This document shows positions 16,781 through 45,794 of a DNA stretch of 64,000 nt, one piece after another (position 1 is the first letter of the stretch; each line of letters begins with the position of its first letter). The DNA comes from Anaerolinea thermophila (GTDB lineage: Bacteria; Chloroflexota; Anaerolineae; Anaerolineales; Anaerolineaceae), in the NCBI RefSeq assembly GCF_020723905.1, contig NZ_DYHZ01000002.1, forward strand, positions 248,001 through 312,000. Reading direction: 5' to 3'. The translations under genes were made by a program, and so were the position numbers. The notes beneath the pieces are model-generated. The model was not told the origin of the DNA, ran no database searches, and saw only the letters and a list, made by a program, of their open reading frames with translations.

Positions 16781-19489
<2,709 letters not shown>

Positions 19490-19553: not shown

Positions 19554-19828
19554 AAAAAACCTTTCGTCTTGCTTGAGGACGAAAGGCATCTTCCGCGGTA
19601 CCACCTCGCTTCGCCCCGTTTGAAGCGGGACGCACTTCCCGGACCAACATCCGGTTGGGCTGTAACGGGCTTTCCCGCACCGGTCTACTCCTCGCAGAAG
19701 GCGAGTTTCTTCGGCGTTCTTGCCGGACGACTTCAGTTCGGACAATCTGCGGAGGCTCGCACCTTCTCCTCCTTCTCTGTCAGACGCTCCCGAACCTACT
19801 CCTTCCGGCGGCTCGGCTATCCAGTTGT
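19554..19828 (-). promoter_or_regulatory. T-box leader of valS, candidate specifier GUC
   Basis: On the minus strand the leader contains, in order: a stem I with the paired arms GTTCGG/CCGAAC and GGAGG/CCTCC, the T-loop motifs AGAGA and GGTGCGAG (complement of 19756-19763), and a specifier-region GTC (complement of 19741-19743) encoding valine. It then has the antiterminator core AGGTGGTACCGCGG (complement of 19593-19606) and a terminator hairpin CCTTTCGTC/GACGAAAGG (19560-19586) with a T-run at 19554-19559. T-box RNAs bind uncharged tRNA and then allow read-through. The specifier assignment is inferred from its place in stem I; its 3' neighbour is C rather than the usual A. Confidence 0.92.
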
Positions 19829-28473: not shown

Positions 28474-28501
28474 TTGACAATCTCCCAAACCGTTCTATAA
28501 T
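28474..28501 (+). promoter_or_regulatory. Promoter of the cysK-cysE operon
   Basis: A perfect TTGACA (28474-28479) and a perfect TATAAT (28496-28501) with a 16-base spacer. Transcription would begin near 28508, leaving a leader of ~263 bases before cysK. Confidence 0.9.
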
Positions 28502-28531
28502 TCGAGTAAGATGGTCAATGAAGGTGGATTG

Positions 28532-28585
28532 ATGGTTCTGGCGTGCATGTGTCCGAGGCGGGGCGTGGGATCCCTGCCTCGCTAG
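28532..28585 (+). CDS. Putative Cys leader peptide of cysK-cysE
   Basis: A 17-codon open frame encodes MVLACMCPRRGVGSLPR and ends with TAG at 28583. AAGGTGG (28521-28527) gives it a ribosome binding site 4 bases before the ATG. The Cys codons TGC (28544) and TGT (28550) flank a Met codon. An in-frame ATG at 28511 would extend it by seven residues. It lies inside the leader of the cysteine biosynthesis operon, just upstream of mutually exclusive RNA hairpins. By analogy with trpL-type peptides, its role would be to report Cys-tRNA supply through ribosome stalling. This is inferred from layout only. Confidence 0.65.
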   Translation: MVLACMCPRRGVGSLPR

Positions 28586-28711
28586 AGCCGTTAATCCCTG
28601 AGAGACAGCCAGCAGAGCGAAGGCAGCGGAGAACAGCCCCGCATACGCAAGTATGTTTGAGCGGTTCTCCGCTGTCTTTTCGTTTTCTTTCTGCTGGCTG
28701 TCCATTTTTTT
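28555..28711 (+). promoter_or_regulatory. Transcription attenuator of cysK-cysE
   Basis: Segment 1 GAGGCGGG (28555-28562) can pair with segment 2 CCCTGCCTC (28572-28580). Segment 2, as CTGCCTCGCT (28574-28583), can instead pair with segment 3 AGCGAAGGCAG (28616-28626, one bulge). Segment 3, as GGCAGCGGAGAAC (28622-28634), can pair with segment 4 GTTCTCCGCTGTC (28664-28676), followed by T-rich DNA. An outer 13-bp stem (28604-28616 with 28690-28702) reinforces the terminator and is followed by a run of seven T residues (28705-28711). A ribosome stalled at the Cys codons would mask segment 1 and favour read-through. Confidence 0.7.
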
Positions 28712-28770
28712 ACAGGAATGTTATGAATACCGGAACAAACCAAACCACATTATCGAAGGAGTACTAAACC

Positions 28771-29709
28771 ATGCGCATTGCAAACGACGCAACCGAACTG
28801 ATCGGCAATACCCCGCTGGTGCGCCTGAACCGCATCGCTCAGGAAGCCGGTGCCGTCGCCACTGTGGTGGCAAAACTGGAGTACTACAACCCCGCCAAAA
28901 GCGTCAAAGACCGCATTGGCGTGGCAATGATTAACGCCGCCGAGCAGGCAGGGCTGATCAAGCCCGACACGATCATCATCGAGCCGACCAGCGGCAACAC
29001 GGGCATAGCGCTGGCATTCGTCTGCGCGGCGCGCGGCTATCGCTGTGTGCTGGTGATGCCCGAGACGATGAGCAAAGAACGCCGTATGCTTTTGCGCGCT
29101 TACGGCGCCGAACTCATCCTCACTCCCGGGAGTGAGGGGATGGCAGGTGCCATCCGCAAAGCCGAAGAGATTGCTGCCAGCGACCCGCGTTACTTTATGC
29201 CGCAACAGTTCAAGAATCCTGCCAACCCGGAGATTCACCGCAAAACCACCGCTGAGGAAATCTGGCGTGATACCGATGGTCAGGTGGATATGGTGGTGGC
29301 GGGTGTCGGCACAGGCGGAACCATCACCGGCGTGGGCGAGGTGCTCAAAGCGCGCAAGCCCTCAGTGCGCATGATTGCCGTTGAGCCTGATGCCAGTCCG
29401 GTGCTTTCCGGCGGGCAGAAGGGTCCGCATCCCATTCAGGGGATTGGCGCAGGGTTCATTCCTGACGTGCTGAACACGCAAATCTACGATGAAATTGTGC
29501 GCGTCAAAGCCGAAGATGCCTTTGCTACGGCGCGCAAGATGGCAAAGATGGAAGGTTTGCTGGTGGGCATTTCTTCGGGCGCGGCGACGTGGGCGGCGCT
29601 TCAGGTGGCGGCTCGTCCCGAGAACGCCGGTAAACTCATTGTGGTCATCATTCCTTCGTTCGGCGAACGCTATCTCAGTACAGCGCTGTTCGCCGATTTA
29701 GCGGATTAG
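28771..29709 (+). CDS. cysK: Cysteine synthase A (O-acetylserine sulfhydrylase)
   Basis: This 312-residue PLP enzyme has the Schiff-base lysine in [11 protein letters not shown] (~38-48), the phosphate/substrate loop [11 protein letters not shown] (~72-82), the GTGGTITG phosphate-binding loop (~178) and the C-terminal SSGAA. It converts O-acetylserine and sulfide into cysteine. It is directly followed by cysE, which supplies O-acetylserine and classically forms the cysteine synthase complex with CysK. The ribosome binding site (GAAGGAG) is strong. The long structured leader with a Cys-containing reading frame suggests attenuation by cysteine supply. Confidence 0.97.
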
Positions 29710-29730: not shown

Positions 29731-30561
29731 ATGGTGGGGAAATTTTTCCAGATGATGCGCGAGGATATTGCCTCGGTATTTGAGCGCGACCCCGCGGCGC
29801 GCAGTGTACTCGAGATTCTGGTGGCTTATCCGGGACTGCACGCCGTATGGGGACACCGTATTGCCCACTGGCTGTGGGGACGCGGGTTCAAGACGCTGGC
29901 GCGCTGGCTGTCGCACGTCATGCGTTTCCTGACCGGCATTGAAATTCACCCCGGAGCGACCATTGGACGGCGTTTCTTCATTGATCACGGAATGGGTGTA
30001 GTTATTGGCGAAACTGCCGAGATTGGTAACGATGTTACCCTGTATCATGGGGTCACGCTGGGCGGCACCAGTCTGCAGAAGGGCAAACGCCATCCCACCC
30101 TGGAAGACCATGTGGTGGTGGGGGCAGGGGCAAAGATTCTGGGAGCCATCACCGTGGGCACGGGAAGCCGCATCGGCGCCAATGCCGTGGTGGTGAAGAG
30201 CGTACCGCCCAACTCGGTGGTGGTAGGCGTTCCCGGTCAGGTGGTGGTGCGCAACCGCCCGCAGACCGCCGCTCCCGATTTGAATCACAACATCCTGCCT
30301 GATACCATCGGCACCACGGTGGCGGCGCTCATTGAGCGGGTTGAATCGCTGGAGAAACGTCTGGAAGAAGCCCGCCAGCAGGTTCAACCCGCGTTGATTG
30401 GCTCCAGCGACCGCCTGGAACGTCTCGAAGCCGTCCTGCGCTCCCATGTACTGGAGCACCCGCATCTGGTGCCGGGCAACGGCAAAGAGCACCTGCATCA
30501 CACTCGCCTGCCGCATCCGGATGCCTCCGGTGTGTGGCATGAGGAAGATTTCACTATCTGA
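29731..30561 (+). CDS. cysE: Serine O-acetyltransferase
   Basis: The 276-residue left-handed beta-helix acetyltransferase has an N-terminal helical domain (~1-70), then hexapeptide repeats ([42 protein letters not shown], ~70-170) with the catalytic His in HGVTLGG. It acetylates serine for CysK. The extra ~80 residues after the hexapeptide core include a coiled-coil-like stretch (~193-245) and a tail ending HEEDFTI. A C-terminal isoleucine is the typical CysE anchor for the CysK active site, so the complex probably forms. It follows cysK by 21 bases. Confidence 0.95.
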
Positions 30562-43835: not shown

Positions 43836-45632
43836 TTATGATTTGCGCTGTGCGTGCAGACGGGCGCGTTCTTCCTCAACAATGCTGGCATCCAGTTTCT
43901 TGAAGAGCGGTTGCGGCGCCTGCAGGGGTTGCCCTGCCTGCAACTGGCTGGGCTCCCACCTGCCGGAAGCATCGTCGGGGTCGTAAAGCAACACGGTATG
44001 CTCGCCCAGGCTGTCCTGCACCGTTCGGGTGGCCTGTTTGCCGAACAGCGGCTTCTCATACCCGAAGTACTGATGCAGTTTCTCACTGCTGAAGGGCAGG
44101 AAAGGCGACAGCAGGATGGAAAGGCTGTCAATACAGCGCAGGGCGGTGTAGATAGCGCGCGCCGCCGCCTGCCGATCGGTCTTGATTTCCTTCCACGGCG
44201 CGGTCTGATCCAGATAGCGGTTGACCTCCGTTGCCAGCGCCATGGCAGTGCCCAGGGCATTGCGCAGATGCACGGCTTCCAGTTCCGCGCTCACGCTCTC
44301 AAAACCGGCTTCCACCCTGCGCAGTATGTCCTCATCCAGAGCGGTCAGAGGACCGGGGTCAGGCACCTTGCCCTCGAAGTGCTTGACAGCAAACGAGAGC
44401 ACCCGGTTTGCCAGATTGCCCCATGTAGCCACCAGTTCATCGTTGTTGCGCTTGTAAAAATCTTCCCAGTCCCAGTCGGTATCGCGCATCTCCGGCATGT
44501 TGACGGTGAGGTAGTAGCGCAGAGGATCCGGATCGTAACGGGAGAGGAAATCGTGTCCCCACACCGCCCAGTTTCGGCTGCCGGAGATTTTATCGCCTTC
44601 CAGATTCATGAACTGGTTGGCGGGCACATCGTAGGGCAGGACCAGTTTCTGTCCTTTCTCTCCGGTGAAAATTTCCATGAAGGTTTCGCCCATTCCAAGC
44701 AGTTGTGCGGGCCACCAGGCGGCATGGAAGAAGATGTTGTCTTTCCCGATAAAGTAAATGGTGCGCGATTCGGGGTTGACCCACCAGTCTTTCCAGACAT
44801 CGCCCAGTCCGTGCAGGTTTGCCCATTCCACGGGAGCAGAGAGGTAGCCGATGACCGCCTCGAACCACACGTAGAGGCATTTCCCTTCCCAGCCTTGCAC
44901 CGGCACCGGAATGCCCCAGTCCAGATCGCGGGTGATGGGGCGGCTCTTCAGCCCCTCGCTTTCAATCTGCCCCAGCGTCTGGCGGCTGACGGTTTCCCGC
45001 CAGTAGTGCTGGCGTTCGCGCAGGAAACGGGCAACCTCCGGCTCCAGTTTGGAGAGGTCCAGGTAGTAATGCTCGGTTTCGCGCAGTTCCGGGGTGGAGC
45101 CGTCCACTTTGGAGCGCGGGTTGAGCAGTTTTTCCGGCTCCAGCACGTTTCCGCATTTATCGCACTGATCGCTGCGAGCGTGTTCATAGCCGCAAAGGTA
45201 GCAGGTGCCTTCGATATAACGGTCGGGCAGGAAACGGTTCAGTGCGGGTGAGTACCACTGCGGGCGGGTTTCGGTGTACAGGTAACCGTTCTTCAGCAGG
45301 GCAAGGAAGACGCTCTGTGCTACCTTGAAGTGATTTTCAGTGTGCGTGGTGGTAAAGAGGTCGTAGGTCAACCCGCATTTCTGGAATAAATCCAGGAAGG
45401 ATTCGTGGAAGCGTTTATAAACTTCTTCGACGGGTTTCCCCTCGGCATCGGCGCGCAGGGTGACCGGAGTGCCGTGCGAGTCGGTGCCAGAGACCATCAG
45501 CACACGATTGCCTTTGAGGCGGTGGTAACGGGCGACGATATCCGCCGGCAGGTACGCGCCGGTGATGTTACCAACGTGAATTTCCGCGTTGGCATAGGGC
45601 CAGGCAACAGCAACCAGAACAGGAGTGGACAT
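43836..45632 (-). CDS. metG: Methionyl-tRNA synthetase
   Basis: The 598-residue class I synthetase has AWPYANAEIHVGNI (HIGH region, ~9-22), a zinc knuckle with CYLCGYEHARSDQCDKCG (~143-160) and the Trp/Tyr methionine pocket. Its catalytic loop near ~347 reads DKISGSRN rather than the usual KMSKS. The anticodon-binding helical bundle follows (~400-540). No C-terminal EMAP/tRBD dimerisation domain is present. It charges initiator and elongator tRNA-Met. The ATG is preceded by GAGG at 8 bases. The leader upstream carries a Met-rich reading frame and a terminator, suggesting attenuation control. Loss of the second lysine of KMSKS is odd but the rest of the enzyme looks intact. Confidence 0.96.
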   Translation of the reverse strand: MSTPVLVAVAWPYANAEIHVGNITGAYLPADIVARYHRLKGNRVLMVSGTDSHGTPVTLRADAEGKPVEEVYKRFHESFLDLFQKCGLTYDLFTTTHTENHFKVAQSVFLALLKNGYLYTETRPQWYSPALNRFLPDRYIEGTCYLCGYEHARSDQCDKCGNVLEPEKLLNPRSKVDGSTPELRETEHYYLDLSKLEPEVARFLRERQHYWRETVSRQTLGQIESEGLKSRPITRDLDWGIPVPVQGWEGKCLYVWFEAVIGYLSAPVEWANLHGLGDVWKDWWVNPESRTIYFIGKDNIFFHAAWWPAQLLGMGETFMEIFTGEKGQKLVLPYDVPANQFMNLEGDKISGSRNWAVWGHDFLSRYDPDPLRYYLTVNMPEMRDTDWDWEDFYKRNNDELVATWGNLANRVLSFAVKHFEGKVPDPGPLTALDEDILRRVEAGFESVSAELEAVHLRNALGTAMALATEVNRYLDQTAPWKEIKTDRQAAARAIYTALRCIDSLSILLSPFLPFSSEKLHQYFGYEKPLFGKQATRTVQDSLGEHTVLLYDPDDASGRWEPSQLQAGQPLQAPQPLFKKLDASIVEEERARLHAQRKS

Positions 45633-45669: not shown

Positions 45670-45739
45670 AAAACCCGGCGGGCACCGCCAGCCGGGCTGC
45701 AGGTTCGTTTCGAGGGCTACGCAGCCAGAACCGGCGGTG
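45670..45739 (-). promoter_or_regulatory. Transcription attenuator of metG
   Basis: On the minus strand the antiterminator arms CACCGCC (45739-45733) and GGCTGC (45726-45721) can pair with GGCGGTG (45689-45683) and GCAGCC (45700-45695): 13 base pairs with one internal loop. The competing terminator uses CCCGGC (45696-45691) with GCCGGG (45679-45674), an inner GGC/GCC, and a TTTT tail (45673-45670). The 5' antiterminator arm lies within the last codons of the leader peptide, so ribosome position decides which fold forms. Confidence 0.72.
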
Positions 45740-45794
45740 AGATTCGTCTCCCGCGCATCATCATGCCGCGCATGCCCATGAGCAACGTTTCCAT
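45717..45794 (-). CDS. Putative Met leader peptide of metG
   Basis: A 25-codon open frame reads METLLMGMRGMMMRGRR then ISPPVLAA and stops at TAG (45719-45717). Six of 25 residues are Met, with three in a row at codons 11-13. GAGG (45806-45803) lies 8 bases before the ATG. The promoter places the transcription start only ~14 bases upstream. Stalling at codons 11-13 would leave codons 19 onward free, which is where the antiterminator arm begins. Translation to the stop codon would cover that arm. This matches the logic of trp-type attenuation, here keyed to charged Met-tRNA. It is inferred from sequence only. Confidence 0.75.
   Translation of the reverse strand: METLLMGMRGMMMRGRRISPPVLAA

Follow-up and report, generated by a model that had tools for sequence, protein, structure and literature searches.

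The region in front of the cysK and cysE genes of Anaerolinea thermophila contains a well-supported candidate for a cysteine attenuator of the leader-peptide type, in which a long conserved antiterminator replaces a conserved 1:2 protector. The leader lies on the forward strand of the window, the whole stretch of 64,000 nucleotides that was analysed, and was compared with the upstream regions of cysK in other members of the family. The original prediction of a Cys-codon leader peptide ahead of a predicted terminator in front of cysK-cysE was borne out by both the sequence and this comparison.

Architecture of the cysK-cysE leader

The features of the leader and the genes behind it are as follows (window positions; arms, stems and hairpins are predicted):

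28474-28501, forward: sigma-70-type promoter with TTGACA (28474-28479), a 16-nt spacer and TATAAT (28496-28501), 12 of 12 consensus positions
28511-28585, forward: uORF, starting at ATG 28532 (17 codons, 28532-28582, after AAGGTGG) or at ATG 28511 (24 codons) and stopping at TAG 28583-28585
28544-28546, forward: first Cys codon, TGC
28550-28552, forward: second Cys codon, TGT
28558-28564, forward: segment 1, GCGGGGC, 5' base of the antiterminator, with its first base 14 nt past that of the first Cys codon
28571-28583, forward: segment 2, upper 5' arm of the antiterminator, overlapping the uORF end
28604-28616, forward: outer terminator stem, 5' arm, located in the antiterminator loop
28616-28630, forward: segment 3, upper 3' arm of the antiterminator, overlapping the 5' arm of the inner terminator hairpin
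28621-28677, forward: inner terminator hairpin (28621-28634 with 28664-28677)
28634-28642, forward: segment 4, 3' base of the antiterminator
28690-28711, forward: outer terminator stem, 3' arm (28690-28702), and T-run (28705-28711)
28771-29709, forward: cysK, cysteine synthase A (NCBIfam TIGR01139, 481 bits against a cut-off of 351)
29731-30561, forward: cysE, serine O-acetyltransferase (NCBIfam TIGR01172, 255 bits against a cut-off of 211)

Promoter-like sites numbered 0.4 on average in shuffled versions of the leader region, and a promoter match of at least 10 of 12 positions was present upstream of the Cys pair in 73 of 74 leaders, including that of the window. The in-frame ATG at 28511, only 3 nt from the predicted transcript start, is absent from the original prediction. 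All the pieces named there, i.e., the promoter, the uORF, the Cys codons, three pairings and the T-run, were recovered in their places.

The folding energy of 28508-28715 is far below that of shuffled sequences (z -9.4, reached by 0 of 200 shuffles); for the terminator part alone (28602-28712), z is -9.9. Segment 1 can pair with segment 2 (28554-28563/28572-28581) and segment 2 with segment 3 (28571-28583/28616-28630, which includes the arms proposed earlier). The arms 1:2, 2:3 and 3-4 of the proposed pairing scheme were thus found, but the scheme overlooked helix 1:4, a perfect 7-bp match of GCGGGGC (28558-28564) with GCCCCGC (28636-28642) that is picked out by the family alignment. Together, 1:4 and 2:3 form a single predicted hairpin of -43 kcal/mol (z -3.8). 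Segment 3 is predicted to pair with either segment 2 or the inner terminator arm, two mutually exclusive states. The terminator also had to be redrawn: the inner (3-4) hairpin and the T-run exist, but this hairpin stops approximately 28 nt short of the T-run, and the stem that adjoins the latter is the outer one (28604-28616/28690-28702), which had been missed. By sequence and prediction, the leader of the window ends in a 13-bp stem followed by seven T.

Around the start of the uORF (approximately 28525-28600, forward), a long stem is predicted between GGATTGATGGTTCTGGCG and CGCTAGAGCCGTTAATCC, the letters of which are not common to the four relatives from the same genus. Judged from these folds, the stem may hide the start or serve as a protector in this species.

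Conservation of the reading frame and the predicted antiterminator

A cysK search over 121 genomes of the family, that of the window included, had a match in every genome; some of these matches are not orthologues. Ninety upstream regions (L002-L091) were drawn from the best-placed 96 among the cysK matches listed; G096, G110, G116, G118, G119 and the second copy in G050 were left out of these 96. The element was present in 79 of the 90 regions and missing in 11. An exact TGC-x-TGT with GCGGG close behind it was seen in 71 of the 90, 136-320 nt upstream of cysK, and eight further elements have an altered segment 1 or codon (L023, L025, L035, L037, L042, L044, L057 and L073). In 77 of the 79, the arm behind the Cys pair has a complementary downstream arm, segment 4; L025 and L029 have no clear one. 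Removal of L023 and L035, in which segment 1 is shifted to +23 (pair GGGAGCA/TGCTCCC) while TGCATGTGT is unchanged, left the 75 leaders used for pairs 7-10 of helix 1:4 and for the frame, masking and terminator counts. Promoters and ribosome-free folds were examined in 74 of these, as the upstream sequence of L063 is too short. Alignment A1 and the covariance model R1 made from it hold 68 of the 79 elements, picked by hand, without L015, L016, L023, L025, L026, L029, L035, L041, L052, L061 and L074. Two of the 11 regions lacking the element, L089 and L091, carry a different kind of short Cys-rich frame with a terminator-like hairpin behind it, as judged by eye.

The leader frame is under selection, as judged from the sequences. 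In the Cys frame, 74 of 75 leaders (that of the window included) have an ATG within 75 nt from which the frame runs open to the Cys pair, and the other two frames have one in 2 and 13; when a Shine-Dalgarno-like match was also demanded, the numbers were 42 against 0 and 1. Relatives could have kept the hairpins and lost the frame or its Cys codons; the opposite was observed, both Cys codons being present in all 79 elements. The start itself varies. A nearly leaderless start, with the ATG at the predicted transcript start, is seen in 26 of the 74 leaders and a Shine-Dalgarno start in 40; four (the window's among them) show both types, and 12 show neither by these criteria. The stop lies 21-27 nt past the first Cys codon in 64 of the 79 elements and at 39 nt in nine, including that of the window. 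The trpL-like placement of the stop at the end of segment 2 that had been pointed out for the window, 39 nt past the first Cys codon, recurs in its genus relatives L003, L004 and L009. The middle codon of the pair, over 75 leaders, is TTG (31), ATG (30), ATC (4), ATA (4), GTG (2), GCG (2), ACC (1) or TTA (1).

The Cys codons themselves are frozen down to their third positions. Although the family search admitted TGC or TGT at both places, the second codon is TGT in 79 of 79 elements and the first is TGC in 78, with TGT once. Elsewhere in the class, TGT was second in 55 of 55 rows and TGC first in 51 of 55, many of these rows having been found with the covariance model, which favours those letters. 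In 45 long reading frames of the window, Cys is encoded 116 times by TGC and 64 times by TGT, so codon preference alone does not explain the pattern. In family and class sets alike, the base following TGT is never G. In L089, outside the conserved layout, the last Cys codon is TGC.

Given the MAFFT alignment of the 68 sequences, RNAalifold reported, unprompted, helix 1:4 as the sole helix, with six pairs, two of which show compensatory, two-sided changes. Segment 1 begins at the identical offset from the first Cys codon in the 75 leaders. Because segment 4 was located through its best match to segment 1, pairs 1-6 are favoured; the RNAalifold result and pairs 7-9 are freer of that bias. Anchored on pairs 1-6 only, pairs 7, 8 and 9 were formed in 51, 44 and 33 of 75 leaders, compared to 38.8, 31.0 and 26.6 with permuted partners. 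Their sum was reached by 0 of 5000 permutations, and the same held for 33 less similar sequences; pair 10 showed no excess (19 of 75 against 24.7 under permuted partners). Compensated variants of the helix are GCGGAGATA/TATCTCCGC in L037 and L042 and GCGGAATAG/CTATTCCGC in L073 and, at class level, GCGAGG/CCTCGC in four and GCGGAG/CTCCGC in two distinct sequences. The comparative alignment of cysK leaders that had been suggested as a check has given both conserved Cys codons and covariation, the latter in helix 1:4. Helix 2:3 belongs to the stretch enclosed by segments 1 and 4, for which the mean folding z against shuffles is -2.6, with 71 of 75 leaders below -1. Columns conserved to at least 90 % in the 68-sequence alignment comprise the Cys codons, the U of the middle codon, the 1:4 arms and a single A, and no others. 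This A (column 91 of A1, 63 of 68 sequences) falls, in the leader of the window, within the 5' arm of the outer terminator stem.

A terminator-like end is a feature of most relatives. Of the 75 leaders, 43 have a best helix between the interior of the antiterminator and the 110 nt after segment 4, made with an outer or inner terminator arm, that exceeds the 95th percentile obtained with mismatched partners, and 32 do not. A T-rich tail, taken as five or more T in 7 nt no further than 13 nt past the best downstream arm, follows in 57 of 75, with none clear in 18. When the leaders are folded at full length, the 3' arm of the antiterminator is predicted to lose at least 5 bases to downstream sequence in 57 of 75, and 15 show no such competition.

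In leaders folded from the predicted transcript start without a ribosome, helix 1:4 is predicted in 65 of 74, the window being one of the nine exceptions, and the 1:2 protector in seven, among them the window and two of its four genus relatives (L004 and L007). In L003 and L009, of the same genus, 1:4 is favoured over 1:2. The four-segment geometry of trpL, which had been claimed for this leader, thus fits the predicted 1:2 protector of the window itself but not the design of the family. As modelled, the conserved switch would be one long antiterminator, 1:4 with 2:3 nested in it, the 5' arm of which consists of the end of the uORF and the bases that follow, with no conserved 1:2 protector. 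As the antiterminator is predicted in most ribosome-free leaders but not in that of the window, the behaviour of untranslated leaders may differ between species.

Proposed attenuation by a waiting ribosome and other explanations

The leader is very probably a ribosome-mediated transcription attenuator that senses charged tRNA-Cys. By sequence and comparison, this reading rests on the frame, the Cys codons, the spacing, the predicted helices, the terminator-like end in most relatives and the sulfur gene context; from these we infer translation of the frame, ribosome stalling, co-transcriptional folding, termination and a response to cysteine. A ribosome would begin the short uORF while RNA polymerase enters the leader. 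When charged tRNA-Cys is scarce, it would wait at the Cys-x-Cys pair; with its A site on the first of the two codons, it would reach up to segment 1 without covering it, which would let the RNA behind the polymerase fold into the long antiterminator (1:4 and 2:3). The latter would take the strand needed for the inner hairpin and enclose the 5' arm of the outer stem, and transcription would therefore continue into cysK-cysE. When cysteine is plentiful, the ribosome would reach the stop codon and cover segments 1 and 2, the terminator would fold and transcription would end at the T-run.

With a footprint that reaches 12 nt past the first base of the A-site codon, simplified masks were applied to the 75 leaders, the stop-codon mask being limited to 35 nt before the end of segment 4. 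When the mask sets the A site on the first Cys codon, all 75 form 1:4. On the second Cys codon, none forms 1:4 and 2:3 persists in all 75; at the stop codon, 1:4 is likewise absent and 2:3 is left in 16. The idea that the stalled ribosome sits on segment 1, part of the original prediction, is unnecessary when its front edge, given this footprint, comes to lie just before that segment. In the complete leader at equilibrium under the first-Cys-codon mask, 1:4 has a probability above 0.5 in only 17 of 75 leaders and near 0 in the window; the switch must consequently be kinetic, acting during transcription.

Leader-peptide attenuators of the trp, his and leu type in Proteobacteria follow the four-segment trpL model. 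They share with the present leader a short frame with codons for the amino acid that is the product of the pathway, alternative antiterminator and terminator structures, and biosynthetic genes downstream. The present leader differs in having Cys codons, a basal 1:4 helix that extends 2:3 and a 1:2 protector that is not conserved and, in the window, in carrying the 5' arm of the outer terminator stem inside the antiterminator loop. An outright copy of trpL, with 1:2 as protector, 2:3 as antiterminator, 3:4 as terminator and termination when the leader is untranslated, overlaps with the attenuator reading and departs from it in the protector only. Such a copy would agree with the 1:2 hairpin predicted for the ribosome-free leaders of the window, L004 and L007, and with the stop codon that falls where segment 2 ends in the window, L003, L004 and L009; the rarity of 1:2 next to 1:4 over the family, and the preference of L003 and L009 for 1:4, make it distinctly unlikely. 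It is very unlikely that the long hairpin is instead a riboswitch for a sulfur metabolite or the binding site of a regulatory protein, the short frame being incidental. The frozen third positions of the Cys codons are what an RNA motif might look like, and the sequence of segments 1 and 4 is strongly conserved. However, 74 of 75 leaders keep an open Cys frame with an ATG while the position of the start, the 5' region and the middle codon all vary, a single column beyond the codons, the middle-codon U and the 1:4 arms reaches 90 % conservation (an A, in 63 of 68), and no Rfam family rises above noise. The search of the leader against Rfam gave no match at gathering, only three microRNA matches far below their gathering scores. 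T-box, SAM and other known riboswitches, which share with this leader the control of amino acid or sulfur genes by leader RNA, were rejected, no T-box or SAM match being found in it down to E 10. Most improbable of all is arrest by the nascent peptide, in which the stall would come not from codon hunger but from the Cys-x-Cys peptide itself, as a metal ligand or as a reaction partner of a sulfur compound. The pair is kept in 79 of 79 elements at constant spacing, as such a peptide would be. Against this stand the cysteine and sulfur genes downstream, the residues after the pair, which change along with segment 1 (L023, L035, L037, L042, L044 and L073), and the in-frame ATG just 1-5 codons ahead of the pair in 55 of 79 elements, in which there may be little chain in the tunnel.

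Simple sensing of tRNA-Cys by the proposed attenuator does not account for the frozen third positions. Intramolecular pairing looks a doubtful cause, as the 68-sequence alignment shows no invariant partner column outside the 1:4 arms, but it may still play a part: in the ribosome-free leader, the Cys codons are predicted to be paired, with a mean probability per base of 0.56-0.78. A speculative and rather unlikely alternative is that the codons form a two-position ruler, TGC being read exactly and TGT by wobble if one tRNA-Cys, assumed to have the anticodon GCA, serves both. Waiting at the first codon would leave segment 1 free for the full 1:4 plus 2:3 structure, while waiting at the second would cover segment 1 and allow only 2:3. 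If true, this would provide a graded reading of tRNA-Cys charging, or a report on wobble decoding alone, e.g., on the modification of tRNA-Cys.

No account of a cysteine attenuator in Chloroflexota was found in the literature searched; as the search was limited to open-licence papers, this absence is weak evidence. The general mechanism of leader-peptide attenuation is described in PMC3766115, where T-box and SAM riboswitches are reported in Chloroflexi as well. In the ilvB1 attenuator of M. tuberculosis, as described in PMC13236596, a ribosome at the stop codon masks the antiterminator and the terminator forms, while a stalled ribosome leaves the antiterminator free. The two-state logic is the same as that proposed here; the codons are branched-chain ones and the phylum is a different one. 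That paper places mycobacterial cysteine genes under translation attenuation by polycysteine leaderless uORFs, citing Canestrari 2020, and PMC1262725 presents actinobacterial cys leader peptides with runs of Cys codons near the stop and without obvious terminators. Shared with both is a Cys-rich frame before cysteine genes and, for part of the Anaerolineae family, a near-leaderless start. The Anaerolineae leader differs from them in its Cys-x-Cys pair, which is not polycysteine, its terminator-like ends and its conserved antiterminator.

Occurrence beyond cysK and other leaders in the window

In its own genome, model R1 found one credible site, the next matches having E values of 0.86 and worse. 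A repeated element was rejected, as this genome gives one DNA match and one credible model match. At E of at most 0.01, a threshold at which a few chance matches are expected, R1 had matches in 35 of 400 genomes of the phylum and 83 of 396 of the class, its own genome included in each. The only out-of-class match in the phylum scan (L136 in G395) was rejected for having no such frame, and the weak model matches L126 and L134 look spurious. The class tally assigned 56 of 65 loci; the mis-assigned L127 was dropped, leaving 55 rows, some of which represent the same place twice (51 distinct places with L127). Genes other than cysK preceded by the element are:

L125, L127, L129: CysM-like synthase (L127, 344 bits, below the CysM cut-off of 394), followed, as judged by eye, by a JAMM protein, DUF4395 and a thioredoxin-like protein
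L128, L132: rhodaneses like 3-mercaptopyruvate sulfurtransferase, below cut-off
L186: O-acetylhomoserine sulfhydrylase, above cut-off
L200: cystathionine gamma-synthase, above cut-off
L192: nitrite/sulfite reductase, by Pfam
L161: cystathionine beta-synthase, above cut-off
L151: DUF4395, by Pfam
L166: MetA-like homoserine acyltransferase (Pfam HTS; NCBIfam below cut-off), behind an element with Cys-Met-Cys-Met-Cys

The L166 element suggests a tie to methionine synthesis, and the position of DUF4395 proteins would suggest, if the attenuator reading is true, that they belong with sulfur assimilation. The exact pattern, run over the genome collection with ATG as the only middle codon, gave 42 matches in 41 stretches, 25 of the 42 in front of a CysK-like start as judged by eye; since it covers this one middle codon, other forms may exist elsewhere. 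By name, forty of the 41 stretches are of Chloroflexota or Anaerolineae type, one of them called Chloroflexus (L161). Spread to other phyla was rejected: the sole outsider, from Sphingomonas (L183), has no in-frame ATG and, by eye, no sulfur gene.

If the reading is true, many members of the class Anaerolineae, poorly studied hosts represented mostly by metagenome-assembled genomes, would use a family of cysteine-specific transcription attenuators. These would define a cysteine and sulfur regulon of cysK-cysE, the CysM-type operon, rhodanese, O-acetylhomoserine sulfhydrylase, sulfite-reductase-like and metA-like genes, and DUF4395. The family would also offer a natural test of how codon choice and the ribosome footprint set an attenuator.

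Two other leaders were seen on the reverse strand of the window. A T-box (RF00230, 78.4 bits, E 2e-17, below the gathering score of 93) at 19572-19815 precedes valS (16781-19489), the reading frame of which looks, by eye, like a valyl-tRNA synthetase; leader control in this window is therefore not of one type. Upstream of metG (match at approximately 44397-45620), a Met-rich short frame, METLLMGMRGMMMRGRRISPPVLAA, occupies 45717-45794 and is probably the other example of attenuation that the original prediction had mentioned. It is followed, as seen by eye, by a C+G-rich hairpin and a short T-rich stretch.
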